Below are positions 1,363-14,231 of a DNA stretch of 64,000 nucleotides, one piece after another. The stretch is taken from NCBI RefSeq assembly GCF_900130045.1, contig NZ_FQXT01000004.1:327276-391275 (forward strand), given 5' to 3'. Every line of letters begins with the position of its first letter. Positions within the stretch are counted from its first letter, which is position 1. The notes beneath the pieces are model-generated. The model saw only the letters and a program-made list of their open reading frames with translations. It was not told the DNA's origin and made no database searches. The DNA is from Leeuwenhoekiella palythoae. GTDB taxonomy: Bacteria; Bacteroidota; Bacteroidia; Flavobacteriales; Flavobacteriaceae. Both the position numbers and the translations under genes were made by a program.

Positions 1363-1366
<4 letters not shown>

Positions 1367-4300
1367 TTTAGAACTTTTGTGATATTTCCAAGTCGGTCAG
1401 TTTGTAATTTCCAACAAACTGATTTTACCTGAATACCATCAACCGAATTTTGATTCTTCAACTGTGGGCTTCCGAGTCCATATTCATTTTTAATAAGTTC
1501 ACCTTTATCCAGATTATAAGCATCTGCAAATTTTTCTCTATTTTCCTTATTACTGATATTGTAAATTACGTCAGCAGAAAACATTGGTATAAAATTGGCT
1601 GTTGTCCCGCTTCCATCCTTAAACAGGTAAATGTTTTCAAGTTGCTGTCGACCCAAATTTTCAAAACCCATATCTTCATCGTTTTTGACGGGTATATATA
1701 CTAAATCGTTGGGCTGCAGATAAAACTTTAATTTAAAATCATGAAAATCGGGATGTTGTTCTGGAACGTTTTTCTTTTGTTCTAAAGGTAAATCTTGCTC
1801 CAATTTTTGTATCTCAAGTATCTCTTCAAAAGGTGGCACATAGTATTTTCTTTTACCTTCCTTTTCATAAATACAGAAATAAAGATTGGTGCCTGTGGCA
1901 GATTTTACAAACTTTGTTTCCCTAAGTAGATTTCCTTCTTTGTCTTCCCACTTTTTGATTGAAAACTTTTTGCCTTTTGGGAATCGCAAACGTGCTTTTT
2001 TTATGGGATGATGAAACACTCCATTGTTTAATGTCAAAATATTTTCGTTTAAATCTTTAATTCCCTTTGCCGAGAAAGCGACTTCTTCCGGTTTAAATAT
2101 GTTACCTTTCTCGTCAATTTGACCTTTGAATTTATCTTGCTTAATATGCCGTAATAGAATGCTTCTGACAACTGGGTCAATCACTGTTTCAATTTTCTTT
2201 TCATCAAAAGAAATATTGAGTGGTTCACGCTTAACTAAGTCTCCTTTATACTCACCATTTTCAAGTATGCCATATACCGTCTCTTCGTGAAGAGGTTTTC
2301 TTATCGCCCAATTTGTTTTGTTATTGGAAGTTTTATCGGTTTTAGAAGAAACTTGTTCTATCCATTGTTTTTTAGGCACTCCGTTTTTGGTATAAACCAC
2401 TTTGCCTGCATTATCTTTATAACGCCAATTGTAATTTTGGGCTTTGTTTATAGCCCTTAAATTTTGCTTGAAGCTGATTACAATTTCCTGTAGTGCGCTT
2501 TTGGCATCTTGAGTAAATGTTTCCCAAGGTTTTTTGTAATTTCCAAGAACAGTATGTTTGGTTTTTTTTTCTGTGAGTGGGTGCGTTTTTTCAATTTGCT
2601 TGGTATCTCTTAAAGTTAAGCCTAAATCATATCGCTTCAAATCTGATTTTGTGTGTTCGTTATTTATGTAATTAACGTGATTACTCGTTAGACTAGCGAT
2701 TATAAGTGCATCAAGTGCGTGGTGGCGATGGTCAATCCTCTTTATATCAAAATCTTCACGAATTTCTAATGGCACTTCTGTTCTAAAATACCCACCATCA
2801 TCTACCCAAGTACCAAAAAGACCATTATTTTCGTTCTCCTCACCACAAATCAATCTGTTGAGTCTCTTAAACCTCTCTTCAACTAATCCGCTCCAAACTT
2901 GATTCAACCCCCATTCTCTACGTAATTTAGCAGTCACTTTACCAGCCACTGGCAGAACATTTTTTACCGTAGATTCTCTCTCCCCTTCTTCCCTAACGAT
3001 ATTACTATAAATTTTCAGTGCCGCTTTGCTTATATAGCGCATATCATTCATTTGACGCTCACTCATTTTTTGTGGCATGGTTTCCCTAAGGAGATTTTCT
3101 TTTTTACGGCCGTCGTAATTTTCTTTTACTAATTTTTCATAGGTTTCCTTTTTAAGGATAGATACTGAACCTCCACCGCTCAATGGGACTTCGGCTTCTT
3201 GAAACTCTTGTATAAAGGTATATGCAGTACGATTGTCCTTTAATGTATTAACCTCGGTTTCACAAATTATTTTATTATTAAAGGAATTATCTAGAAACTT
3301 TGATTGTGGTATAACGTGTTCAATTTCATATTTACTTGTGAACAGTTGAGTGAGTGGTATAATTTTTCCTGTATAGGGAGATATATACTTTTGCTCTAAC
3401 CAAAGTTTGTATTTGAGAATTTCGCTAAATGTAGGCTGGTTCTTTTTTATGAATTTTTCGACAGTTAGTTTAGAATCTAATTTTTCGGCTTTCAATTCTT
3501 TTTCGGAATAATTAGATAACACCGTCTGTTCAAAAATCTTCAACTTATCAAAATGTGTTCTTGAGTTTGGAATTACATTTTCTACCTCTTTTACATTTTT
3601 CAGTTCAAAAAGCAATTTTCGGATACGCTGATTGGTGTCTTTATTTTTATTGTTAGAATTGGTCATTTTTTCCCTTACCTTTTTAGGGTTTTTAAGCTCC
3701 CTGCCAATTTCAATATGTATTTTAGAAAATAAGCGATCGTAAGACTTAACTTTTTTTCCAGTCTTTTCATCAATGTATTCTTCAAACTGCAGACCAAATT
3801 TTTCAGCGTAGTACTCCCAAATATCTAATGTCACCCTTAATGACTCAAGTAAAACTTGTTCGACTATAGGGTTTCTTAAACTGTGCTGTTTAAAAGTATT
3901 GATATATTCGGCCAGATCTTTTGATGATTTCCATTGAGTTGCATCCACCTCTGAATGTTTGCCATACACGATATAAGAAGCAAGCCATAGCGGTAAACCT
4001 TGAAAATGTTCGATTTTGTCAAGCTTGATAGCTTTTTCTCTAACTTGATTTTCAATTCTCTCATCAAATTCTCCAGTCAATAATTTATCAATTATTTGAA
4101 TGCTCGATGGATGAATCGACACTTCGCTCCAATGACAGCCACACCTCATTAACCCAAGCAATTTTTTAACAGCCTTTTCAGAATAGGTCGCATACTCCTT
4201 TTTGAGCATTGGAGCTCGCTTCAGCTTTTCGGTTGTTTCTTCAGAAAGACTGTTGCTTTCCCCAAAGCGACCGATTGCGGTATCATATTCGCTCTTGTCT

Positions 4301-4929
4301 GTGACTGAATAGATAATGTGCCAGAGTTTAAGTTCAAATTGCTCATCAAATTTTCTTTTATCCTCTTTAGATAGTTTTGAAAGTAAAGCAGGTCTTGTTT
4401 GGTTGCAATCTAGTTTAATTTTATTATCATCTGTAAAATTCCATCTATATAGTGACTGCTCCTTTTTATCTCTTATGAAATATGCTACGAGTTGTTTTTG
4501 ATTGATGTCTTTTTTATTATAAAGAAAGTTGAAAAACTTGGCTAAGTCAGATTTGTTTCTGATGAACTGGTTAGTAACATCCAGATTGATTTTCAGTTTT
4601 CCATTTTCTTCTGCCTCTCGCTTTTGAATTCTTAAGTTATGAGCCAACTGCCAAATTCTAAATTCCTGAAACAAGGGATGGGATTTTGGCATCCCTTTTA
4701 TTTTTACTTCGTGTTTATCGCCCGTTAGAGAGTCTACATACACTCTTTTTTCAAATGAACATCTGGAAACAAGCCCTGTTTGCGATTTTAGCGGCCGATG
4801 ATAAAACAAAATGTCTTTTAGGAAAAGATGAATGAACGTATCCTTTTGTTTTAACAAATTCTCTTGATGGGCAATGTTGTGTGCGTACAATTCCTGAACC
4901 GTTCTTTTGTACAAATTTTTATCCCCCAT
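1363..4929 (-). CDS. cas9: Cas9, C-terminal part (REC to end), separated by a frameshift
   Basis: This frame carries 1188 residues of a type II-C Cas9. Visible landmarks are RuvC-II around residue 405 (IHIEIGRELKNP), the HNH nuclease around residue 535 with its catalytic His in YEIEHVIPQS, and RuvC-III around residue 735 (DHRHHALDALIIA) with its His/Asp pair. All nuclease residues in this part are intact, and the C-terminal PAM-interacting region is full length. The ATG at 4929 lies inside the frameshift overlap and may be a chance start. Joined to the upstream piece, the protein would be about 1547 residues, a plausible length for Bacteroidota Cas9. Everything except the frameshift looks healthy. 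Confidence 0.93.
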
Positions 4930-6005
4930 TGCTCTTCACGGAATTTAAGTTGAGTTCTTAGTATTACCTCAAGCTCGTCAAAATAAAAATCGCGGTCAAT
5001 AGTGCGAATCAATTCACCACGTATTTTTTGTTTCGGATTTTCTAGGAGTGTCTCGTAAATGTATTTACCAACAAAAGTTTTGTCTGCGCCTTTTTGTGAT
5101 TTTCTTAAATCTTGCTCTGTTTTTCTCTTGATTGCTTCCCAATCTTTTTCTGAATCAACTTTTTTGAACGTTCGCTTAATAGAACCATCTTTGTTTATTG
5201 TACTAGTTACAATAAACTCAATGTCTACCCCTTCCCAAATTTCAGGCTTCGTAGTAGTATTGTCATAAATCCAGCCATTATCAAAAATTATTTCGTAAAG
5301 TGGCTTATCGTCAACTTTTTGGTCTGTTATTTTAAATTGTTCCGCTTTTAAGACAATGAGTTCTACTTTTTTATTTTCATCAATTTCTACTTCTTTCTCA
5401 TCTCTTTCTTGGTAATAGCCTCTCTTTTGATTGAAATTCAATAAAATCCAAGCCAATTCTTGATTTGAAATTTTCTGGGTCAAACCTTTTTTTCGTAAAT
5501 AGTAAATCGTCCAGTCATAAGGTAATCGATAAGGTTTTCCCTTTTTGTTGAGTTTTGGCAAGTTTGGATAGCGCATTCGGAATTCTTTCTCCATTTCTTC
5601 GTAAGAATCCATAAAATTGAAAATTCTATTGCCATTTTCGTCAACTTTATATGAATAGGCTATTAAAGGTTCCGAACCTTTTTTAAACTGTCCCTTCTTT
5701 TCATCAAAATCGATTTGATTAGAAAAATTATCTGGTAGATAGTCTAAAATATTCAAAATTCTCAACAATCTCTCTCTACGAGTCCTACTTCGTGCGTATA
5801 GTCTTCGTACTCCCCTATCATCAGTCCTTTCGGCCGTTTGAGATTTCGTAACACCTTTTTCGAAGTTTCCTAAAACTTCCTTTGACATTGGGATAATCCT
5901 ACTTCCAAGTTTTATAATCCTTTTTGTACCATCTTCTAAAATCTCAATCAATGCCCATCCAATCGAGTTGGTCCCCAAATCCAATCCTAATATTCGTTTC
6001 ATCAT
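4851..6005 (-). CDS. cas9: Cas9, N-terminal part (RuvC-I, bridge helix, start of REC)
   Basis: This 384-residue frame begins with RuvC-I (LGLDLGTNSIGWA, catalytic Asp9), then an arginine-rich bridge helix (RRLYARSRTRRERLLR). True Cas9 sequence runs to Trp360-Gly361 (about 4923); the last 23 residues are out-of-frame readthrough. At 4923-4927 the minus strand reads CAA TGG GGG ATA. One extra G, or a -1 ribosomal slip on the G run, would join it to GAT AAA AAT TTG, the start of the downstream frame. The gene is therefore a single-base frameshift split of an otherwise complete cas9. Without correction this piece alone has no nuclease activity. Confidence 0.93.
   Translation of the reverse strand: MMKRILGLDLGTNSIGWALIEILEDGTKRIIKLGSRIIPMSKEVLGNFEKGVTKSQTAERTDDRGVRRLYARSRTRRERLLRILNILDYLPDNFSNQIDFDEKKGQFKKGSEPLIAYSYKVDENGNRIFNFMDSYEEMEKEFRMRYPNLPKLNKKGKPYRLPYDWTIYYLRKKGLTQKISNQELAWILLNFNQKRGYYQERDEKEVEIDENKKVELIVLKAEQFKITDQKVDDKPLYEIIFDNGWIYDNTTTKPEIWEGVDIEFIVTSTINKDGSIKRTFKKVDSEKDWEAIKRKTEQDLRKSQKGADKTFVGKYIYETLLENPKQKIRGELIRTIDRDFYFDELEVILRTQLKFREEQWGIKICTKERFRNCTHTTLPIKRIC
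4923..4927 (-). other. G5 homopolymer frameshift site in cas9
   Basis: Five consecutive Gs on the coding strand (C5 on plus). Six Gs would restore one continuous cas9 frame giving Gln-Trp-Gly-Asp-Lys-Asn. The run is short, so a real indel, strand-slippage variation, recoding and sequencing error all remain possible. Confidence 0.85.
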
Positions 6006-6103
6006 TTCTATTTCTATATGATTTCTTAAAAATAGATATACTTATTTAGTTTAAAATGAGGAAATCTATAATTTCATTAAAAATCAATTATTTATATTAG
6101 CAG

Positions 6104-6177
6104 TCTGAAAGCAATTCACAATAAGGATTATTCCGTTGTGAAAACATTCAAAGCGGCCTTTACGGGTCGCTTTTTTT
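6104..6177 (+). ncRNA. tracrRNA of the type II-C CRISPR system
   Basis: Located about 100 bases upstream of cas9 and transcribed divergently. The anti-repeat CTGAAAGCAATTCACAAT (6105-6122) predicts a crRNA repeat beginning near ATTGTGAATTGCTTTCAG, which matches the usual GTTGTGA(A/T)TTGCTTTC start of flavobacterial II-C repeats (from memory). It is followed by AAGGATTATTCCGTTGTG and a tail ending in a terminator hairpin at 6152-6171. TTCACAA (6114-6120) is complementary to TTGTGAA (6135-6141), so free tracrRNA may fold on itself. A near-consensus -7 box TATATTAG sits at 6093-6100. The RNA looks complete. Confidence 0.85.
6152..6177 (+). terminator. Rho-independent terminator of tracrRNA
   Basis: Stem AGCGGCC (6152-6158) pairs with GGTCGCT (6165-6171) with one G-U wobble, followed by a run of Ts. 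It marks the 3' end of the tracrRNA and forms its last hairpin. Confidence 0.85.
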
Positions 6178-6351
6178 GATTCAATAGTTTTTCCTTATCA
6201 ACGTTGTTATATTTACATTCCAGTATCTTATAAATTGATTTAAAATGTAAGGGGAATAAACCCCATTTCCCTTCATTTTCTAAAAGAGCTTCTCCCGAAA
6301 TTTGGTGACGGGAAAAGCGGTTCATTCAAAAAATCTTGAACCCAATCCTGA

Positions 6352-6367
6352 TCCCGAAACTTCGGGA
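6352..6367. repeat. Short REP-like hairpin
   Basis: Perfect inverted repeat TCCCGAA / TTCGGGA with a two-base centre, like the small extragenic hairpins common in flavobacterial genomes. The rest of 6180-6800 shows no gene or other structure I can support; its sequence resembles the non-coding flanks of flavobacterial conjugative elements, from memory. Confidence 0.5.
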
Positions 6368-6800
6368 GGATTACGTTCGCTTGATTCAAGTGCACTATAA
6401 AATGATTGCTCAAAAAGAGGCTGAGTCAAACTCAAAATTCTACCAACACACTTTTTTCAAACGCTGATTTCCTTTTCTTGAAAGAACTAAAATTTAGTTT
6501 GAGCCGCTTTGCATAATCAGGCTCCGCTGTCGCTCTTTTTATAAAAGCTTTCCTCAATACTAAATTTTAAATGGAGGTAATCGAAAAGAAAACGCGATGG
6601 CGCTATGGAAAGTAAATGGATGCTTAGAAGCAGCTAATTTTCGTTTGGGTGAATATTGAAATCTATCTAATATAGAGCTTCTGTTTTTCTATCAAACTTC
6701 AAGAAAAACGCTCCAGATATACCAAGTAAATGGTTTTGATCTTACATAAAATTTGAAAGCATTTGACATCAAAATTAATGCGGATTTTAATTGATAACTT

Positions 6801-6990
6801 AGGGTTTAGAAGTTATCATTTTGAGTAGCGAAGCGGACAAAAATGAGAAGCAAGAGGATAACCCGCTGCGCGAGGTTATAAAGCTTATTTTTGTCCGTAA
6901 ACACCTGTTTTTAAGTGAGTTATTTTTGTTTCATGAAGTATTTAAAATAACTGTTTTATAGCGATTTTCCGTGAAACGCTTCTAAACCCT
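6801..6990. other. Nested inverted repeats; possible oriT or element-end region
   Basis: Outer 12-bp perfect inverted repeat AGGGTTTAGAAG (6801-6812) and CTTCTAAACCCT (6979-6990). Inside it lies a perfect 11-bp repeat CGGACAAAAAT (6834-6844) / ATTTTTGTCCG (6887-6897), and inside that ATAACC (6858-6863) / GGTTAT (6874-6879) around CGC-T-GCG. Three nested dyads directly upstream of a mobilization-type protein suggest an origin of transfer or recombination end. No relaxase or integrase is nearby, so it is probably a relic. Confidence 0.5.
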
Positions 6991-7034
6991 TATAAATAGG
7001 GCGATTGATTATCCTAATCTTTAAAAATCTAGTG

Positions 7035-7361
7035 ATGCCTAAACGATTTTCCCGAATAAATTTTCACACCGAAACAGTGGAGCGCTTTAAAAAGTACGCC
7101 ATAGTAAATGATGCCAATTATACAGAAACCCTAGAGGCTATTTTAGACTTTTTCGAGCAGAATTCTATTAATCCATTTGAGCCCTTTGATGATTCTAAAC
7201 AACGATTGGAGACACTAATTAATAAACGGATGGATGGGGTAGAAGCTATTCTAAGAAGAATTGAAACCGAACAGACCAAACCGACCAAAGAACTATTGGA
7301 TAGACTTTTTAATCAACAGGAAGAGAAACAACCCAAGTTTGTTGAACGGAAATTTAGGTAG
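7035..7361 (+). CDS. BfmA/BtgA-family mobilization protein (orphan)
   Basis: A 108-residue, strongly charged helical protein. Its pattern FHTETVERFKKYA, then ETLEAILDFFEQNSINP, then IETEQTKPTKELLDRLF follows the BfmA/BtgA accessory relaxosome family of Bacteroidota mobilizable elements as I remember it. That family acts with a relaxase at oriT. I chose the ATG at 7035 (MPKRFSRI) rather than the upstream in-frame TTG at 7005. A partner relaxase gene, normally adjacent, is missing, and the next gene is on the opposite strand. It is therefore likely a remnant of an integrated mobile element, although the frame itself is intact. Confidence 0.65.
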   Translation: MPKRFSRINFHTETVERFKKYAIVNDANYTETLEAILDFFEQNSINPFEPFDDSKQRLETLINKRMDGVEAILRRIETEQTKPTKELLDRLFNQQEEKQPKFVERKFR

Positions 7362-7477
7362 AGGAATAAGTTTGTTCTGAGTATATAATTTAACCTTTTA
7401 AATGGATAGTTCGCTCATGTTCGTTGTACAAGTTTTTGCATTTTATGTTATTTATCTGTTCATAACACTCCCTGTTT

Positions 7478-7590
7478 GTTTAATCTTTTAGGGAAGGGTT
7501 GTATATGCTGCCTGCATTTAGTGAGTGCTATTAAAATACCTCACCTTACGGGTGTACAAGCACCCTCAGACCCTAAGGGCCAATTATTTT
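7478..7590 (-). ncRNA. Candidate guide RNA of the dCas12f-like protein: scaffold (7590-7498) plus guide (7497-7478)
   Basis: Non-coding DNA directly after the dcas12f stop codon, on the same strand, in the position where TnpB and Cas12f relatives often encode their RNA. Reading minus, it holds the hairpins CCC-TTA-GGG, GGGTG-CTTGTA-CACCC, GTGAG...CTCAC and ATGC...GCAT, and then ends TATACAAC. A terminal CAAC before the guide is typical of Cas12f and TnpB RNAs. The next 20 bases, 5'-CCTTCCCTAAAAGATTAAAC-3', would be the guide. The boundaries are inferred, not measured; the guide may be shorter or longer. No strong terminator follows, so the 3' end may come from processing. Confidence 0.6.
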
Positions 7591-7594
7591 CGCA

Positions 7595-8692
7595 TCAATC
7601 GATGAGTAATTCAATACCTGCTTTTTTGGCTTTGTATTCTATCTTCTTAGTCAATTCATAATAATTCCAGTTTCTAAGCACAAAACGTTCTTGCTGTGCG
7701 GCCTCGATCTTAGCTTCCTGATTGAGCAGAATTAAGGTGCCGGCTTGTTGTTTGATACAAAAATCAATGAGCTTTCGGCTGTACACATGCAAGCGGTTAC
7801 TTACGTAGTTTTTTTCCAGTTCGTAAAATTTTTCTACTGCTTTAGTTTTGCGTTTAAAGCCTTTTCCAGGTCTGCAATAGGCGGCTCCGCTTTGGGCTCT
7901 TTTTTGAGCAGCCTGCAGGGCTAGCCTTCTGTATAGAAATTCCTCCCTGTTACCAATACGAAGTGTAGCTTTTCCGGATTTCACAGTAATAGGATATTCA
8001 AGGGATAAAGAAGCCTCCGCAATTACTTCTGTTTTCAGGTTATGTATTTCTTTTTCAAATTCAAAGGTGGCTAACCAATATATTTTTTGCTTCTTCAATT
8101 GGATTCTAGAAGTACATAGTTTGATTTTGCCCGCGACTAACTGTTCCAGCAATTTTCGTTTATCGGTATGATCCTTCCCTAAATAGGTTTTTAAGGGAAT
8201 GGAAAACAAGCGAAAACAAAATGCTTTTTGCGCTTCGTTATAGGATAATCCATGAATGGCTACCGGCCCAAAAGGAAACGCGATATTCCTTTTAAAATTG
8301 GCTAGCGCACGTTCTCCTTTACTATATTCCGACAGGTGGTTACGAAAGTTATTGATTATGGTATTGTTCAGGTTGGCTAAAATGTTAGTAGGGATTTCCC
8401 CTTTAAAACGATCGGATACCACCCGGTATGTGCAGTTCATTTTTGACCTATTGAGCATGCCGTCTTCCGCTTTTTTTTCATCCGCTAACTTATAGCGTAT
8501 TCCTTCTGATAAGTAAAAGAATTCTTTGACCCGTTCCTGTATGTACAGATGTGAAATAATGAGATTGGCCGCTCTAAAGCTTCTGTTCTGCCAGCGGTAG
8601 AGCGTGTCGTAGACCTCCTTCTTTTCCACTTTGGTAGGCGCATTCACCTGTAGCTGGATCTTTCGGGTGAGTTTTATCGTTTCTTTTCCCAT
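7595..8692 (-). CDS. Nuclease-dead Cas12f/TnpB-like RNA-guided DNA-binding protein
   Basis: A 365-residue protein with the layout of a compact TnpB/Cas12f: a helical recognition part (WQNRSFRAANLIISHLYIQ near residue 35), a wedge-like beta part, then a RuvC-like fold from about residue 220. The catalytic residues are gone. Where RuvC-I should read G(I/V)DLG it reads VIAEASLSLEY (223-233). RuvC-II reads TLILLNQEAKI (319-329), with Leu or Asn in place of Glu. The chain stops at KKAGIELLID, so the zinc-finger insert and RuvC-III Asp are absent. The start lies 11 bp after the sigma-factor gene, so both are one operon. Cleavage is very unlikely; RNA-guided binding to recruit the neighbouring sigma factor fits the published dCas12f-sigma systems. 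A decayed transposase is the less likely alternative. Confidence 0.82.
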   Translation of the reverse strand: MGKETIKLTRKIQLQVNAPTKVEKKEVYDTLYRWQNRSFRAANLIISHLYIQERVKEFFYLSEGIRYKLADEKKAEDGMLNRSKMNCTYRVVSDRFKGEIPTNILANLNNTIINNFRNHLSEYSKGERALANFKRNIAFPFGPVAIHGLSYNEAQKAFCFRLFSIPLKTYLGKDHTDKRKLLEQLVAGKIKLCTSRIQLKKQKIYWLATFEFEKEIHNLKTEVIAEASLSLEYPITVKSGKATLRIGNREEFLYRRLALQAAQKRAQSGAAYCRPGKGFKRKTKAVEKFYELEKNYVSNRLHVYSRKLIDFCIKQQAGTLILLNQEAKIEAAQQERFVLRNWNYYELTKKIEYKAKKAGIELLID

Positions 8693-8703
8693 GACTAAGC
8701 GGA

Positions 8704-9489
8704 TTATTGTTGATTTTGTTTATGCTGTAACAGTTTATAGGCAGCCATAAATTGCTGATGTACTTCCTGTATAGAAAGGCTTAGCTCCTTGGAAATAGCT
8801 GCAAAGGAATACTGCTTTTCTGTACGAAGCTGCAAGACTTTTTTCTGTTTGCGGGTCATATTAGCCTGAGCCTTTAACTCCCGGATCGGTGTGGTTTTAG
8901 CTTCCGGTGTACTTCCGTTAGTAATGATATTCTTAATATCTTTAATAGCACCTTTTACTTCGATACTGGTTTTGGCGGTGCTGGTTCCCATTGCCTGAGC
9001 AATAGCTTTATACTGAAAGCCGTATTTTAAGCACAGTTCCACCAGAAGCTTTCTCTCACTACTTAGTAAGGGAAGTACCCTTTGAATTTGGTCTAAAGCC
9101 TTCTGATCTGCTTCCTGTCTTTGTAGGTGAGCAGCTTCTTCATCCTCGTTATAGCCGCCTAAATAATCCTGATAATTCTCTAAATAGTCTAATCTGCTTA
9201 GGTTTCGTTGAAACGCATTCCGGGGCTTGTTATACTGATAAATACACTCGCTTTTCATTACAAAGTGTACGAACGCATTTAGATGTTCTGGGGATTGTAT
9301 GCGATCCCTTTTTTCCCATAAGATAAGAAAGGTATCCTGAAGAATATTTTCAACTGCATAGACATCCTTAAGTATGCTTCTGCCCATCCAGTAGACACTA
9401 TGGTAATACTGCGTGTAAATCGCTTCAAATGCGTGTGGACAACCTTTTTTGAAGGCATTGTAGTAGGTGTCAAGTTGAAATCGTTTCAT
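8704..9489 (-). CDS. ECF-like RNA polymerase sigma factor partnered with dCas12f
   Basis: A 261-residue protein with a sigma-2 region at about residues 10-90 (FEAIYTQYYHSVYWMGRSIL, then AVENILQDTFLILWEKRD, which matches the core-polymerase-binding helices) and a sigma-4 helix-turn-helix at about 135-190 (LPLLSSERKLLVELCLKYGF, then YKAIAQAMGTSTAKTSIEVK). It is about 60-80 residues longer than ordinary ECF factors because of a second HTH-like module at 207-257 (MTRKQKKVLQLRTEKQYSFAA, then ISKELSLSIQEVHQQF). It is co-transcribed with the dead Cas12f-like gene, and no anti-sigma gene is adjacent. Inferred role: it brings RNA polymerase to sites chosen by the guide RNA. The start ATG at 9489 follows a long structured leader. 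Confidence 0.85.
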   Translation of the reverse strand: MKRFQLDTYYNAFKKGCPHAFEAIYTQYYHSVYWMGRSILKDVYAVENILQDTFLILWEKRDRIQSPEHLNAFVHFVMKSECIYQYNKPRNAFQRNLSRLDYLENYQDYLGGYNEDEEAAHLQRQEADQKALDQIQRVLPLLSSERKLLVELCLKYGFQYKAIAQAMGTSTAKTSIEVKGAIKDIKNIITNGSTPEAKTTPIRELKAQANMTRKQKKVLQLRTEKQYSFAAISKELSLSIQEVHQQFMAAYKLLQHKQNQQ

Positions 9490-9499
9490 AAGCTAAGTG

Positions 9500-10276
9500 T
9501 TCTGTATTTCGTTTACATTCTATTCTTTTTAAGGGCGTTTCGGTTTAGGCTATCAAGGTTGTGCCAGGAATCGTGTTTCTAGGTATTTTGGCTCCTGAAA
9601 ATGCTTTATGGCGCGGTAACGCATCCTCTATACCTGGCGTAGCATCGTTTTTTAATACTTCATAGCTGTATTAGGTAAACCAATTGTTTTGGTTAAGCTC
9701 AAGCCTTCCCGCCGGACTCCAAGCACAACCGGGAAGGTTTTTGAACTTAACAGCTTCTCTTTTTCGCAGCCCCTAGGGGCTGCAGCACTTTTTTATGGCT
9801 AATTCACCGGTGTGCTTAAACCTAGCCGGTATAAGCCCAGGCCGCTGTTACAGCGGCATTTCCCACCCAACTACAGGTTACTTCGTAGGGAAGCAACCCA
9901 TAACCCACGGGTGACTTAACGGATTATGATGTTTACCCGTAAACACGTGCTTTGTGCATAGGCAGTAGTGCTTTTACTGTTCGTTAACTACAACTCATAC
10001 AAGTTGCCGGCCACTATGGCCTATATGATGTAGGGGGAAAAGGGTGCGAAGCTTGATAAAGAGAAGAAACAAAGGCTCTGAACGTGAAGTAGTGGGCCTA
10101 ATACAAAAAGGCGCAGGTCTCAACTTATTGAATCAAGGTACTGGTATACCGCGCAACAATAAGCGAGAGCCCACGCCCGGGTCGTGAGCATCCCTGCTTA
10201 TCCTCTCGTTGCTAAAAATTACCAGTTTTTGATTCGAGATTCAAAGCGAATGCTTCTAATATGTTATGCTAAGAAG
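9500..10276 (-). ncRNA. Long GC-rich structured leader or ncRNA upstream of the sigma-factor gene
   Basis: There is no plausible ORF on either strand between 9583 and 10367, yet G+C reaches 47-55% in 9781-9900, above the neighbourhood. Reading minus, clear stem-loops are GCTCACG/CGTGGGC (near 10170-10190), GGTTGCTTC/GAAGTAACC (near 9873-9895), GCCGCTG/CAGCGGC (9841-9857), GCTTATACC/GGTTTAAGC, GCAGCCCC/GGGGCTGC and a long stem between GTTAAG at 9750 and CTTAAC at 9691. Three of these contain a G-U pair on the minus strand that would be an A-C mismatch on plus, pointing to a minus-strand RNA. GAGAG/CTCTC and ATAAGC/GCTTAT near 10160-10208 could form a pseudoknot. Function unknown; it could be a regulatory leader or part of the guide-RNA machinery. 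Confidence 0.6.
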
Positions 10277-10281
10277 TTTCG

Positions 10282-10308
10282 CAAATATATAATTATGAAT
10301 CAAATATA
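10282..10308 (-). promoter_or_regulatory. Tandem TATATTTG boxes, promoter of leader-sigma-dcas12f operon
   Basis: Two perfect TAnnTTTG boxes read on the minus strand, at 10289-10282 and 10308-10301. Transcription from the first would begin near 10276, giving a leader of nearly 800 nt before the sigma factor start. Confidence 0.55.
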
Positions 10309-10320
10309 GTATTCTTCTGT

Positions 10321-10346
10321 TTAATGCGGAAGAAATTCCGCATTAA
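10321..10346. promoter_or_regulatory. Perfect 11-bp dyad, operator or hairpin in the divergent promoter region
   Basis: TTAATGCGGAA, a GAAA centre, then TTCCGCATTAA. The dyad lies between the HTH gene and the minus-strand TATATTTG boxes, so a bound repressor could affect both. As RNA it would be a GAAA-tetraloop hairpin followed by ATTTTT, so a terminator role is also possible. Confidence 0.5.
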
Positions 10347-10376
10347 ATTTTTATTGATATTCTTCCTTTGTTAAGT

Positions 10377-10592
10377 ATGAACATCAATTTTCTCATAAGT
10401 AAAGCCATTTCCGAATGGATTAAAGATGCCAAATCAAACCGAGATTTCGGACTTAATCATGATATTGATGAGAAAATTGTAAGAAGAATTCTTGACGAGA
10501 AGGAATATCGTATTCCTGTCGAAACTCTAAAAAGGATTTGTGATGCACGTCAAATAAAATTATCGGATTTCTTTTCCAAAATCGGAGAATAA
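10377..10592 (+). CDS. Small XRE-like helix-turn-helix regulator
   Basis: A 71-residue protein starting MNINFLISKAISEW. Its pattern, a helix, KIVRRILDEKEYRIPVETLK and then RICDARQIKLSDFF, is the usual end of a Cro/C1-type HTH domain: the recognition helix followed by the helix that begins with the sentence-like L..IC.A. An in-frame TTG lies three codons upstream, but the ATG at 10377 is preferred. It is divergent from the dCas12f-sigma operon and sits just after a perfect dyad that could be its operator. A regulator of the neighbouring RNA-guided system is a reasonable guess; a remnant of the mobile element's immunity control is another. No partner gene is adjacent. Confidence 0.65.
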   Translation: MNINFLISKAISEWIKDAKSNRDFGLNHDIDEKIVRRILDEKEYRIPVETLKRICDARQIKLSDFFSKIGE

Positions 10593-10915
10593 ACCTTTTA
10601 TAACTTCATACTCTATCATGGCCTTTGAGTGGGCTTTGCCTAGGGGATGCTATGCTGATGCCCTGAGCGCATTATAACTTAAAAAAAATGTAGGGTTTAC
10701 CCCTTATCTACCTATACATTTTGGTTATTTAATCCTGGAATGGTTATACGCTTAACTGAGATTAAGGAATTCTGTAATCCGTTTCTAAAGGAAATGTCTA
10801 GATTTATATACAGAACTCTAATGTGTTGATATCCGGTAAACTTTGAGGGGATATGTATATATTTAGTATTGATATAACAAGTTGTAAAACATTTTAAACA
10901 AAACCACGAACTGAA
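10593..10915. other. Intergenic region, no gene seen
   Basis: About 320 bases without a supported gene. It contains the stretch GTAGGGTTTACCCCTTATC (near 10691-10709), whose GGGT/ACCC arms can pair, and is otherwise A+T rich. No promoter box of the TAnnTTTG type is obvious before the next gene. Confidence 0.4.
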
Positions 10916-11749
10916 TTGGGAACTTGGGGAACAGCCATAAAAAGTAATGACACTTCAGCAGATATTTATGCGGAATTTTTCGATTTATACAACGACGGAA
11001 AAGAACCGACAGAAATCAAAAAGAAGCTAATTTCGGACAATCCAAACGGAGAAAATGATTTTTGGTTTGCTTTGGCACTAGCTCTTTGGGAAACTAAAAG
11101 CTTATCGACTGATATTCTTGAAAAAGTTCGTGAAATAATCGAAAACGAATCTGACTTAAAAATATGGAGAGAGCTCGACGCAAGCGAATCGGATATTAAA
11201 AAAAGAAAAGTTGTTCTAGATAAGTTTTTAGCAAAATTAGAATCCGAAAAAGCCAAACCAATAGCAAGAAAAAGGAAGAAGAACAAACAACCAATTTTTG
11301 AAACTGGAACTTGCCTTGTTTTTAAATTGGCTAATGGAAATTATGGAAGTGCAATAGTTTTGAGTTCAGATTTGGAGACTGGATATGGATATAATTTAAT
11401 CGTAACTACAAGATTAAATCAATCAACCAAACCGACACTAGAAGATGTTGAAAAAAGTGAAGTTTTGATAAATAATTTTGGAGATTGGCAAAAAAGTACA
11501 GCTTGGTCTTGGTATTTACCTGACAATTATAAAAACAATATATACGAACCCATTGGTAAATTTGAAATCCAAAAGAAATACAACGCTAAAAATTCTGAAA
11601 TAGTATTTGGTTATACATCAAATTGGGATTTTGTAAGCTCTTCAATATTAAAACAAATGGATTTTGAAAAAACGAACGGTAAAACCAAAACTTTTCCGAC
11701 AAAACGATTGATTAAATCCAAGAAAATAAAATGGTGGCAAATTAGATAA
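10916..11749 (+). CDS. Hypothetical protein with N-terminal MGTWGT motif
   Basis: A 277-residue predicted cytoplasmic protein. It starts MGTWGTAIKSNDTSADIYAE, a hallmark of a widespread family of small accessory proteins related to DUF4259-type sequences; I cannot name the family with certainty. A helical N-terminal half ends in a lysine-rich linker near residue 120 (KPIARKRKKNKQP), and a beta-rich half follows (FETGTCLVFKLANGNYG). The only start giving the conserved N-terminus is TTG at 10916. Base composition is A+T rich compared with the core genes, and the gene is followed by a hairpin region and terminator like an inserted cassette. Immunity or defence roles are possible but unsupported. 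Confidence 0.65.
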   Translation: MGTWGTAIKSNDTSADIYAEFFDLYNDGKEPTEIKKKLISDNPNGENDFWFALALALWETKSLSTDILEKVREIIENESDLKIWRELDASESDIKKRKVVLDKFLAKLESEKAKPIARKRKKNKQPIFETGTCLVFKLANGNYGSAIVLSSDLETGYGYNLIVTTRLNQSTKPTLEDVEKSEVLINNFGDWQKSTAWSWYLPDNYKNNIYEPIGKFEIQKKYNAKNSEIVFGYTSNWDFVSSSILKQMDFEKTNGKTKTFPTKRLIKSKKIKWWQIR

Positions 11750-11754
11750 AAAAA

Positions 11755-11797
11755 CGTTTTACAACACCGGTAACCGTTGCACAAGACTGTAAAATGT
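11755..11797. repeat. Imperfect palindrome downstream of the MGTWGT gene
   Basis: TTTTACA (11757-11763) pairs with TGTAAAA (11788-11794), and CAAC (11762-11765) with GTTG (11776-11779) around ACCGGTAACC. It looks like a cassette boundary but does not match the integron attC core consensus. A comparable hairpin, GGGT...ACCC within ACGG...CCGT, lies near 12090-12115. Confidence 0.35.
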
Positions 11798-11815
11798 AAC
11801 ATTACAAACATAAAT

Positions 11816-11837
11816 AAGCCGCTCTAAGCGGTTTTTC
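11816..11837 (+). terminator. Rho-independent terminator
   Basis: AGCCGCT-CTA-AGCGGTT with one G-U pair followed by T5; terminates transcription from the MGTWGT gene. The remaining bases to 12138 hold no gene; AAAAAAGGAAGCGAGCATTC-like A-rich sequence and a small hairpin are all I see. Confidence 0.65.
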
Positions 11838-12138
11838 TTTTTTGGATCAACTTGGTTTTAGACCAAATTCAGAACGCTTAAAACCGATGTATCGCTGTTT
11901 GTTAGTCTGTTTTTCAGCAAAAAAAAGGAAGCGAGCATTCCTGCTCCGCTTTTCACTTGTTTTTGGTTGAAATTGAGGTTTTTTGAAATTGTAAACTCAT
12001 TTCATTTCTATCAGCGAAAAACGCATACATCTTATATGTAGCTTTCGTTGGATGTCGCAGCTACTTCAACTACTTTTAAAATATAAACGGGTAGTTTTGT
12101 AGACCCACTGCCGTTGTGTGTAATTAAACAAAATCCTT

Positions 12139-12879
12139 ATGAATAGAGCAATTATATACATTTTTCTAATTCTTTCTTTTGGTTGTAAAGCCCAAGAAAA
12201 GGAAACTGGATTTGTATGGAATATTGAAAACGAAAAAATCCATAACGAGAATAGAAATGATTCAACAAAATGGAGTTCTAAAAACTGGAAAGCTGACACC
12301 GACAACATAAAAGTTAGTGGAAAACCGATGATAAATGGAGTTTTTCCAGTTCCTGATTATGATTTGACTGATAGCACCTTTAATGGGCTTGGATATTCCG
12401 GAAGTTGGCAAGGAATTGATTTAAAAGACAAGAAAATAATCTATCATTCTTTGTATGTAAATAAAAATGCAGTTAACCAAAAATTTATAGATGACAAACC
12501 AAACGAAGTTTTCTTCACCATTGCGGTTTTGACTGATAGCATCGATTTAAAAAGATATTCACACACAGATGTAAGCATCACATCAAGAAATCATCCGCAT
12601 TATGTCGGACAAGGGTTTGTCAAGACAAAAGGAAATGAAATAGATTTCATTTCCTTTTTGACAGCGGACAGAAATGACTATGCAATCGTCAACATGCGAC
12701 TGTTCGACTTAAGAATTGGACGAATAATCCTGATCGCACCTCAAAAGGACGGAACGTTGTGTTCATTACAATTAGATGCACCAATTATGTCTTCAGAGGA
12801 AATGGACGATCATATTGAAAGTCTTATGACAAATAACAAAGAGGTAATTAAGTTTTTCACTAAATCGGAAAACATTTAA
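12139..12879 (+). CDS. Hypothetical lipoprotein
   Basis: A 246-residue protein with a lipoprotein signal (MNRAIIYIFLILSFGCKAQ, lipobox cysteine at about residue 16), so it is anchored in a cell-envelope membrane. The mature part is mixed alpha/beta, with no motif I recognise. The gene is markedly A+T rich, stands alone between two intergenic hairpin regions, and its start is close to the sequence CCGTTGTGTGTAATT, which I remember from other flavobacterial single-gene cassettes. Together with the preceding gene it looks like acquired accessory DNA. No function can be assigned. Confidence 0.75.
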   Translation: MNRAIIYIFLILSFGCKAQEKETGFVWNIENEKIHNENRNDSTKWSSKNWKADTDNIKVSGKPMINGVFPVPDYDLTDSTFNGLGYSGSWQGIDLKDKKIIYHSLYVNKNAVNQKFIDDKPNEVFFTIAVLTDSIDLKRYSHTDVSITSRNHPHYVGQGFVKTKGNEIDFISFLTADRNDYAIVNMRLFDLRIGRIILIAPQKDGTLCSLQLDAPIMSSEEMDDHIESLMTNNKEVIKFFTKSENI

Positions 12880-13026
12880 AATCATTATTGAAAGCCAAAC
12901 TTGAGATAACACAACAATCCTTTCCTCTAGAAAATATGAACCTATGACCAATATTTTAGTGCTTGGTATTTACGGTTTTCCAAATTAAAGCCCTTTAGAG
13001 TAGTAAGTAAAACTTTAGAAAGGTTT

Positions 13027-13062
13027 AGTAAACGTTTTTGTTTACTTTATTTGCTATCTTTG
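13027..13062 (+). promoter_or_regulatory. Promoter and dyad operator of the AbiE-type toxin-antitoxin operon
   Basis: AGTAAAC (13027-13033) and GTTTACT (13040-13046) form a perfect 7-bp dyad, followed by the -7 box TATCTTTG at 13055-13062. The antitoxin HTH domain probably binds this dyad to repress its own operon. Confidence 0.65.
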
Positions 13063-13077
13063 CTGAAAGTTTTTGCC

Positions 13078-13590
13078 ATGTTACCTGATCTTGATAAAAT
13101 AAAGGGCGTACATCCCGGAGCTGTTTTAAAACGTGCTTTAAAAAAACGCGGTATTACCGGAAGTGATTTAGCGCGAACTATTGATGAGCATAAACAAACC
13201 ATTAGCGCAATTTTAAACCGGCGAAGAGCAGTAAACGCGAAACTATCTATTAAGCTTGGAGAGGTTTTTAGCGTAGAGGCAGATTACTTTATGCTCCTGC
13301 AAGCCAGCTATGATGTGCAGCAACAAGTTGCGGCAAACTATGGGAGAATTCCCAATCTCAATCATTTTAGAAAAGCGCTCTTTTGGGATACTCAATTAGA
13401 GCGGATAGATTGGGATAAAAACAAGCGTGCTGTAATACAACGCGTACTTGAGCGCGGAAACGGAAAAGAAATACAAGAGCTTCTTTCATTTTATGGGAGA
13501 CAGACTGTTAAGAAGATTGCTCAATCGATCAAGAAAAGTTATTTACCCTCTTTTGAAGAAAATCTCAAGAATTATAATCTTATAGAGTAG
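13078..13590 (+). CDS. HTH antitoxin of an AbiE-type toxin-antitoxin pair
   Basis: A 170-residue protein. The N-terminal half is an XRE/HigA-like HTH (GVHPGAVLKRALKKRGITGS, then LARTIDEHKQTISAILNRRR). The C-terminal half, FWDTQLERIDWDKNKRAVIQ followed by RVLERGNGKEIQELLSFYG, is the DUF6922-like domain that usually accompanies nucleotidyltransferase toxins. The ORF can be extended to a TTG at 13051, but that would place the start upstream of the -7 box, so ATG 13078 is chosen. It ends two bases before the toxin gene, so the pair is one operon. Role: neutralises the toxin and represses the operon. Confidence 0.8.
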   Translation: MLPDLDKIKGVHPGAVLKRALKKRGITGSDLARTIDEHKQTISAILNRRRAVNAKLSIKLGEVFSVEADYFMLLQASYDVQQQVAANYGRIPNLNHFRKALFWDTQLERIDWDKNKRAVIQRVLERGNGKEIQELLSFYGRQTVKKIAQSIKKSYLPSFEENLKNYNLIE

Positions 13591-13592
13591 CA

Positions 13593-14231
13593 ATGGAACT
13601 TCAGTTAAATACGGTATCTGAATTGCTGTGGAATACACTCCAGAAATTGATGGAGATTCAAGAATTACATTCATTTAGATTAGTAGGAGGTACCTCATTA
13701 AGTCTTCAACGGGGTCATCGAGAGTCTATTGATATTGATTTGTTCAGCGATGCCCCATATGGAAGCATAGATTTTGAAAAAATTGAATCTATTCTTAGAG
13801 TTACTTTTCCATATTTTAGTAGCTCTTCTGAGCTTGTGGGAATCGGTAAATCTTATTTTATAGGGAATACCGAGGATGACTTGGTAAAATTGGATTTATT
13901 CTATACAGATCCTTTTGTATTTCCATTAATTATGGAACAAAAGGTTCGTTTTGCTAGTGTTCAAGAAATAGCTGCAATGAAACTTGAAGTTGTAGGGCAA
14001 GGAGGCCGCAAGAAGGACTTTTGGGATATTCATGAGCTTCTCGAAAGTTATACATTGAATGAACTGATTGGTTTTTACCTAAAGAGATATCCTTACAACT
14101 TATCAACAGAGGAACTGATGAATAAGATTGTTGATTTTTCTTTAGCAGAAGATGATTTTACGCCTAATTGTTATAGAGGTAAAATCTGGGAACTGATCAA
14201 ATTGGACCTTGAAGAACTAGTTGAAAGGTAA
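13593..14231 (+). CDS. AbiEii/AbiGii-family nucleotidyltransferase toxin
   Basis: A 212-residue nucleotidyltransferase of the AbiEii (DUF1814) family. The active-site pattern is clear: LVGGTSLSLQRGHRESIDID, with GGT(S) followed by the Asp-x-Asp metal ligands, and then a third carboxylate region VKLDLFYTDP. The helper motif KKDFWDIHELL is typical. Family toxins transfer nucleotides to tRNA or other targets, causing growth arrest that can abort phage infection. It lies immediately after its antitoxin and is probably translationally linked. Full length and undamaged. Confidence 0.87.
   Translation: MELQLNTVSELLWNTLQKLMEIQELHSFRLVGGTSLSLQRGHRESIDIDLFSDAPYGSIDFEKIESILRVTFPYFSSSSELVGIGKSYFIGNTEDDLVKLDLFYTDPFVFPLIMEQKVRFASVQEIAAMKLEVVGQGGRKKDFWDIHELLESYTLNELIGFYLKRYPYNLSTEELMNKIVDFSLAEDDFTPNCYRGKIWELIKLDLEELVER

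Follow-up and report, generated by a model that had tools for sequence, protein, structure and literature searches.

Nuclease-deactivated Cas12f (dCas12f) that works together with a sigma factor is a known kind of system: structures and functional work on dCas12f-sigmaE reportedly came in 2025 from the Sternberg and Chang groups. In the members studied, the guide scaffold is said to follow the dCas12f gene and the targets to be of the susC type. Transcription reportedly starts about 46 bp from the target edge, and a 5'-G target-adjacent motif (TAM) is said to lie beside the target. TldR, a related case, is a stand-alone dead TnpB without a sigma partner. Here we describe a sigma-dCas12f operon of Leeuwenhoekiella palythoae in a stretch of 64,000 nt (NZ_FQXT01000004.1, 327,276-391,275), called the window below, whose positions serve as coordinates. 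Sequence comparison supports this operon as a new member of the dCas12f-sigmaE family. We give a probability of about 0.75 to the reading that it is a dCas12f-sigmaE system for RNA-guided activation of susC-type operons and for regulation of itself.

The sigma-dCas12f operon

A sequence-only reading of this DNA had proposed one minus-strand operon made of a structured leader, an extracytoplasmic function (ECF) sigma factor, a Cas12f-like protein and a guide scaffold. All of these parts were identified, from 7498 to 9489 behind the leader. In the order of the minus strand, with details of each element beneath it and a divergent neighbour at the end, the features are:

10095-10284, minus strand: M1, a two-state structured RNA (model R1); fold A is a rod, fold B is terminator-like with a T-run at 10109-10105
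10282-10289, minus strand: TATATTTG, at the 5' end of M1
10167-10178, minus strand: M1 switch strand GGGCGTGGGCTC, which pairs in either fold and is matched by M1-type guides of relatives
9653-9757, minus strand: M2 hairpin element (model R3)
9731-9737, minus strand: CCTTCCC in this M2 of the own leader, a 7-nt guide match and a candidate self-target
8704-9489, minus strand: ECF sigma factor gene, 261 aa, with region 2 and two region-4-like stretches
7595-8692, minus strand: dCas12f gene, 365 aa, RuvC acids lost and C-terminus truncated
7498-7570, minus strand: guide-RNA scaffold (model R2), whose conserved stretch ends in CATATACAAC at 7498
7482-7497, minus strand: candidate guide segment CCTTCCCTAAAAGATT, starting at 7497 and of provisional extent; its first 8 nt match an M2 before susC elsewhere in the genome
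10368-10592, plus strand: small XRE-type helix-turn-helix (HTH) gene, divergent from M1

The sigma and dCas12f open reading frames (ORFs) are separated by 11 nt, and the structured leader upstream of the sigma gene is 800 nt long.

Both proteins match known dCas12f and sigma chains from end to end. A profile (A2) of 15 relatives of the Cas12f-like protein matches PDB entries 9n9c, 9n9m, 9n9o and 9n9q, named 'Nuclease-deactivated Cas12f', over the whole length (E 9.5e-210), and the sigma factor matches the 'RpoE' chain of 9n9q (E 2.5e-71), a comparison that rests on entry names and sequences. Pfam finds region 2 (1.3e-6) and region 4_2, in two stretches (2.2e-8), in the sigma factor. For the Cas12f-like protein, Pfam matches are weak (OrfB_IS605, E 0.084), and the NCBIfam TnpB match (4.1e-15) lies under the cut-off of that model. 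The sigma gene adjoins dCas12f in 23 of the 23 relatives with a whole dCas12f gene, including one with dCas12f in two frames (L014) and one with a scaffold between the genes (L028). Sequence of dCas12f was found at 14 loci in 13 named genomes, of Leeuwenhoekiella, Salegentibacter, Zunongwangia, Chryseobacterium, Kaistella and Epilithonimonas (a fragment), plus a metagenome-assembled genome of Weeksellaceae. Among 249 sampled genomes of the family, 10 hold dCas12f, full-length in nine and as a fragment in G021, and the scaffold occurs in exactly these 10. Because both proteins match one solved complex from end to end and the scaffold keeps to the dCas12f genomes, the membership proposed from the letters alone is supported.

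The same reading had held that the nuclease residues were lost while the rest of the fold was kept, and this stands in its first half. In the alignment with active Cas12f 9nzo, the Asp of GVDLGI faces Ser (AEASLSLE) and the Glu of QMER faces Leu (ILLN), at the places of the catalytic residues. The fold is kept only partly, as the C-terminal part is gone: the window family ends 60-90 residues short of the active chains, with 9nzo matched to residue 414 of 506 and 7wju to 361 of 422, and active chains match the dCas12f profile only in part. A CRISPR-Cas12f immunity nuclease was rejected because RuvC is not intact. AlphaFold2 gave a poor model of dCas12f from 15 sequences (mean predicted local distance difference test score 46.6); since solved homologues exist, structure prediction is unnecessary for the fold assignment.

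Other identities were also considered. TldR was rejected, as the sigma gene is paired with dCas12f in all 23 relatives and the closest solved protein is a dead Cas12f. For a phage or plasmid origin, only distant TnpB proteins (<30% identity) were found, in five plasmid and two phage records, and no relative was found in viral contigs. In some relatives, conserved stretches end close to 10311 and close to 6878, which had suggested a mobile element; this reading was set aside, M1 accounting for the first of the two edges. The stretch 6878-6501 is kept in loci L003, L004, L018 and L023, at a shifted distance from the operon.

The leader elements M1 and M2

Model R1 of M1 was built from 15 of 19 sequences, leaving out three near-duplicates (L002, L014, L025) and a partial copy (L021). 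In the rod of fold A, 94.7% of cells are paired, with two-sided changes in 46 cells, where shuffles give 13.0. Fold B uses the same switch strand, and GGCGTGGGCTC pairs with GAG..CCACGCC ahead of the T-run; here 97.2% of cells pair, and covariation is weaker (two-sided changes in 6 cells, 0.7 in shuffles). The window copy alone has a folding z of -2.9. By a simple pattern, a T-run lies 3' of M1 in 39/41 and 34/34 copies of two sets, and a consensus terminator scan, which covers loops of 3-8 only, did not list the terminator-like stem. In relatives with 60-75% identity at the protein level, 120-290 nt of the 5' part of the leader are conserved, with 71-90% identity in the DNA. At the 5' end of M1, TATATTTG resembles the Bacteroidetes -7 promoter box, and TAnnTT[TG] stands just 5' of M1 in 39/41 and 29/34 copies of the two sets. 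The HTH protein may control the M1 promoter, since tblastn with three HTH queries hit homologues in 28 of 85 distinct regions upstream of M1, the queries' own three among them, and these were divergent in every case.

M1 is present in 46/249 genomes of the family and in 55/345 genomes of the class. Within the family it occurs in all 10 genomes with dCas12f sequence, against 36/239 without, and it occurs in 13 of the 13 named genomes with such sequence, one of which has a fragment only. There are 82 M1 matches in the family genomes, and the regions around 41 of them, plus around 6 more, were examined. Downstream genes were called within 4.5 kb by hidden Markov models built from 3 susC, 15 dCas12f and 16 sigma sequences. 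The gene after M1 is susC in 27, sigma-dCas12f in 3 and neither in 11 of the 41 copies (40 family loci). For 34 copies from genomes with dCas12f sequence, the corresponding counts are 20, 10 and 4.

Outside the family, the genes after M1 look diverse (19 loci). Class-level M1-like RNAs (e.g., L298, L306, L307), which occur in several families of Bacteroidia, have a conserved core and are followed by unrelated genes, and a 1.9-Mb genome (G555) has five M1 copies. In two genomes (G019 and G251; loci L084, L086, L096, L098, L099, L100 and L105), M1 stands before a family of 110-122 aa proteins, with several copies per genome. In G169 (L112) it precedes an ordinary ECF sigma and FecR anti-sigma pair, with a susC-like gene further on, a locus that points to a possible tie between M1 and sigma/SusC circuits that lack dCas12f. 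Rfam 15 gave no match up to E 0.1 in window positions 4000-14000, which cover the leader, M1 and the scaffold. It gave four matches in L012 6880-7110 (best E 1.8). In a set of 20 loci it gave two, at E 0.032 and E 0.72, each with a score well under the gathering score. No description of M1 or M2 was found in Rfam or in the literature searched. One report mentions Flavo-1 and 64 structured 5' regions, and nothing that identifies M1 stands in the passages covered (PMC9723704). M1 could itself be a switch RNA that is widespread in Bacteroidia and has so far gone undescribed.

M2 is a hairpin often found about 100-50 nt upstream of the ATG in susC genes that follow M1, and model R3 was built from 12 of 18 such sequences. 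In the Leeuwenhoekiella-Salegentibacter-Zunongwangia group, its sequence in genomes with dCas12f is AAAGCCTTCCC...GGGGAAGGC or similar. In the genome of the window the model finds two places, the leader of the operon itself (E 2.3e-8) and, on contig C8 at about 774072-774167, the stretch immediately upstream of a susC-susD-S9 peptidase operon lacking M1 (E 5.6e-13). The model found no M2 in G031 and G134 and only marginal matches in G162, G125, G063 and G094; the guides of these genomes are mostly M1-like. Because the window stretch between M1 and the sigma gene is homologous to parts of susC leaders in other Leeuwenhoekiella (L146, L119), the operon can be said, on homology, to carry a susC-type leader. 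Such a leader ahead of the sigma gene suggests self-regulation.

Guides, candidate targets and proposed mechanism

Among 19 genomes searched in depth, the number of scaffold copies per genome ranges from 1 (the window strain and others) to 13, the weakest copies counted having E above 1e-6. In Salegentibacter the scaffolds form tandem arrays, and some units include the last codons of the dCas12f gene. Guide extraction left out 2 of 100 scaffold matches, which ended early, and the 78 guides compared below include those of weak and perhaps degenerate scaffolds. Guides are mostly M1-like (GCGTG..) or M2-like (..CCTTCCC..), and some are neither. The window's own guide is not of the M1 type.

The guides were compared from their first base with the M1 and M2 elements of their own genomes, and a match was scored as matches minus twice the mismatches. 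At a score of at least 9, M1 and M2 gave 785 matches per Mb (60 over 76 kb of guide-by-base comparisons), as against 23 per Mb (26 over 1.1 Mb) in the flanks on both strands. Matches are thus about 34 times denser in M1/M2, a rough measure, as the flanks come from the same loci, guides and elements within a genome depend on each other and there are duplicates among the guides. Such a match was found for 30/78 guides, and 31/78 exceed 95% of 60 shuffles of themselves. The mean best score is 8.6 on the same strand, 6.7 on the opposite strand and 5.7 for shuffled guides. The best matches in relatives span 13-17 nt. For example, the variant AAAGCCTTTCCCC stands in both the guide and the susC M2 of one genome (13/13), and guides with other variants match as GGCGTGTCATCCNACTT (16/17) and AAAAGCCTTCCCGCG (15/15).

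The guide of the window strain is among the weaker ones. It matches the susC M2 by 8 nt next to a G; after this G, CCTTCCCT starts 73 nt before the ATG. In the M2 of its own leader it matches by 7 nt, and the preceding base is A. Past its first 8 nt, the sequence is similar to what follows the other M2-type guides, which may mean that only a short guide is functional. Long-guide targets were rejected on the perfect and one-mismatch places of the 16-nt pattern: no other perfect place for the guide exists, and the two places with one mismatch lie inside the open frames of other genes.

By analogy with the family, we infer RNA-guided transcription start by this pair, and with it complex formation, DNA binding and self-activation. 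The dead Cas12f would bind a guide RNA supplied by the 3' end of the operon that encodes it. The guide would pair with DNA, and dCas12f would bring sigma and RNA polymerase there, so that transcription would begin a short distance downstream of the pairing site. The targets would be susC-type uptake operons and also the sigma-dCas12f operon, reached through its captured susC-type leader with M1 and M2. The most probable sites in the window strain would be the M2 before the susC-susD-S9 peptidase operon and the M2 of the own leader. With the reported 46-bp spacing, the predicted start at the susC M2 lies about 27 nt before the susC ATG. At M1 sites it would lie about 21 nt before the T-run, whose first T is 67 nt away from the switch strand in the window copy. 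Such a start would be past the 5' arm of the terminator-like stem, and therefore the transcript is predicted to be unable to form the stem.

Several results weigh against this proposal. No match of score 9 or more exists for 48/78 guides, and the window guide matches by only 8 nt, or 7 nt in its own leader. Searched as 16 nt with up to 2 mismatches in four Leeuwenhoekiella-type genomes, it finds 16, 13, 26 and 14 places, itself included, and the reversed-pattern control finds 9, 13, 19 and 9, so that the guide is at most slightly above the control. A G stands next to the best match in 17/30 guides (14/21 at M1 and 3/9 at M2), although a 5'-G TAM is reported for the studied members. M1 precedes the sigma gene in 17/23 relatives and as a piece in L021, and no M1 match was found there in five of the 23 (L005, L006, L007, L011, L016). 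M1 is also wider than dCas12f (55/345 genomes of the class) and hence does not exist for this system.

The strands of the matches bear on another explanation, in which the guide-like RNA acts on the leader RNA and not on DNA: it would pair with the complementary hairpin arm in M1 or M2 and so shift the terminator switch, with dCas12f as an RNA chaperone. The two folds of M1, with covariation in both, and the identity of its switch strand with M1-type guides would suit such a role. The hairpins necessarily contain the guide complement too, and some guides score up to 12 on the opposite strand. The best matches, however, are same-strand and extend past the hairpin arm (14-16 against 4-10 on the opposite strand in the strongest cases), the sigma partner is left unexplained, and the solved family reportedly targets DNA, all of which makes this explanation unlikely. 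The single guide of the strain with its 8-nt match, and the C-terminal dCas12f remnants with scaffold in L015, L024, L026 and L027, could also indicate an operon that is decaying or idle in this strain, its guide matches elsewhere reflecting shared ancestry of leader pieces. This we regard as quite unlikely, given that both ORFs are open, dCas12f is 97-98% identical in two sister species, the window scaffold is intact and M2 stands before susC in the same genome. That the system binds its sites but represses, as dead TnpB relatives of the TldR kind are known to do, with sigma as a passive neighbour, is very improbable given a sigma gene beside dCas12f in 23/23 relatives with the whole gene and both proteins as chains of 9n9q.

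RNA-guided activation may also have a history in leader RNA. In a tentative account, which we hold at somewhat less than even odds, dCas12f-sigma connects to an earlier control of susC genes by leader RNA, with M1 serving widely in Bacteroidia as a terminator switch where dCas12f is absent. Guides of a few lineages would then have acquired the M1 switch strand or the M2 arm, and transcription started under their guidance would begin within the terminator or beyond it and escape attenuation. On the same account, self-control would come from the captured susC leader, and the regulon would have widened by tandem copying of scaffold-guide units, the guides following the M1/M2 variants.

Neighbouring loci and known systems

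A type II-C CRISPR system had been noted next to the operon. A II-C-like locus is present at 1363-6005 on the minus strand, with cas9 as two overlapping ORFs in different frames, both of which match TIGR01865. The split cas9 is either a broken gene or a sequence error. ORFs at 449-1366 and 102-452 are cas1-like and cas2-like, respectively, by look alone.

Compared with known systems, the window family shares TnpB family similarity and a guide after the gene with TldR and TnpB, and differs in that its dead Cas12f is paired with a sigma factor. It is homologous to CRISPR-Cas12f (9nzo, 9nzr) over profile positions 84-362, but is without the catalytic residues and the C-terminus and has a scaffold-guide unit beside the gene. 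M1 resembles terminator-type riboswitches and attenuators in its two exclusive folds, one with a terminator-like stem and T-run, and in its frequent place before transporter genes. It differs from those known in having no convincing Rfam match and in that its switch strand doubles as a guide match in dCas12f genomes.

The closest likeness is to dCas12f-sigmaE (9n9c, 9n9m, 9n9o, 9n9q), in both proteins from end to end and with equal lengths (365 and 261 aa). The scaffold after the dCas12f gene and the susC-type candidate targets also agree with what is reported of the studied members. If the reading given here is right, a marine Leeuwenhoekiella-like genome encodes a natural activator of transcription guided by RNA, for which concrete candidate targets can be named. 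M1 and M2 make the targets and the switching of dCas12f-sigma systems testable genome by genome, and many guides predict an operon. Beyond the known system, a target map, a putative self-regulating leader and M1 are added. The window system may differ from the studied dCas12f-sigmaE members in the susC-type leader with M1 and M2 before the sigma gene and in relatives with up to 13 scaffolds.
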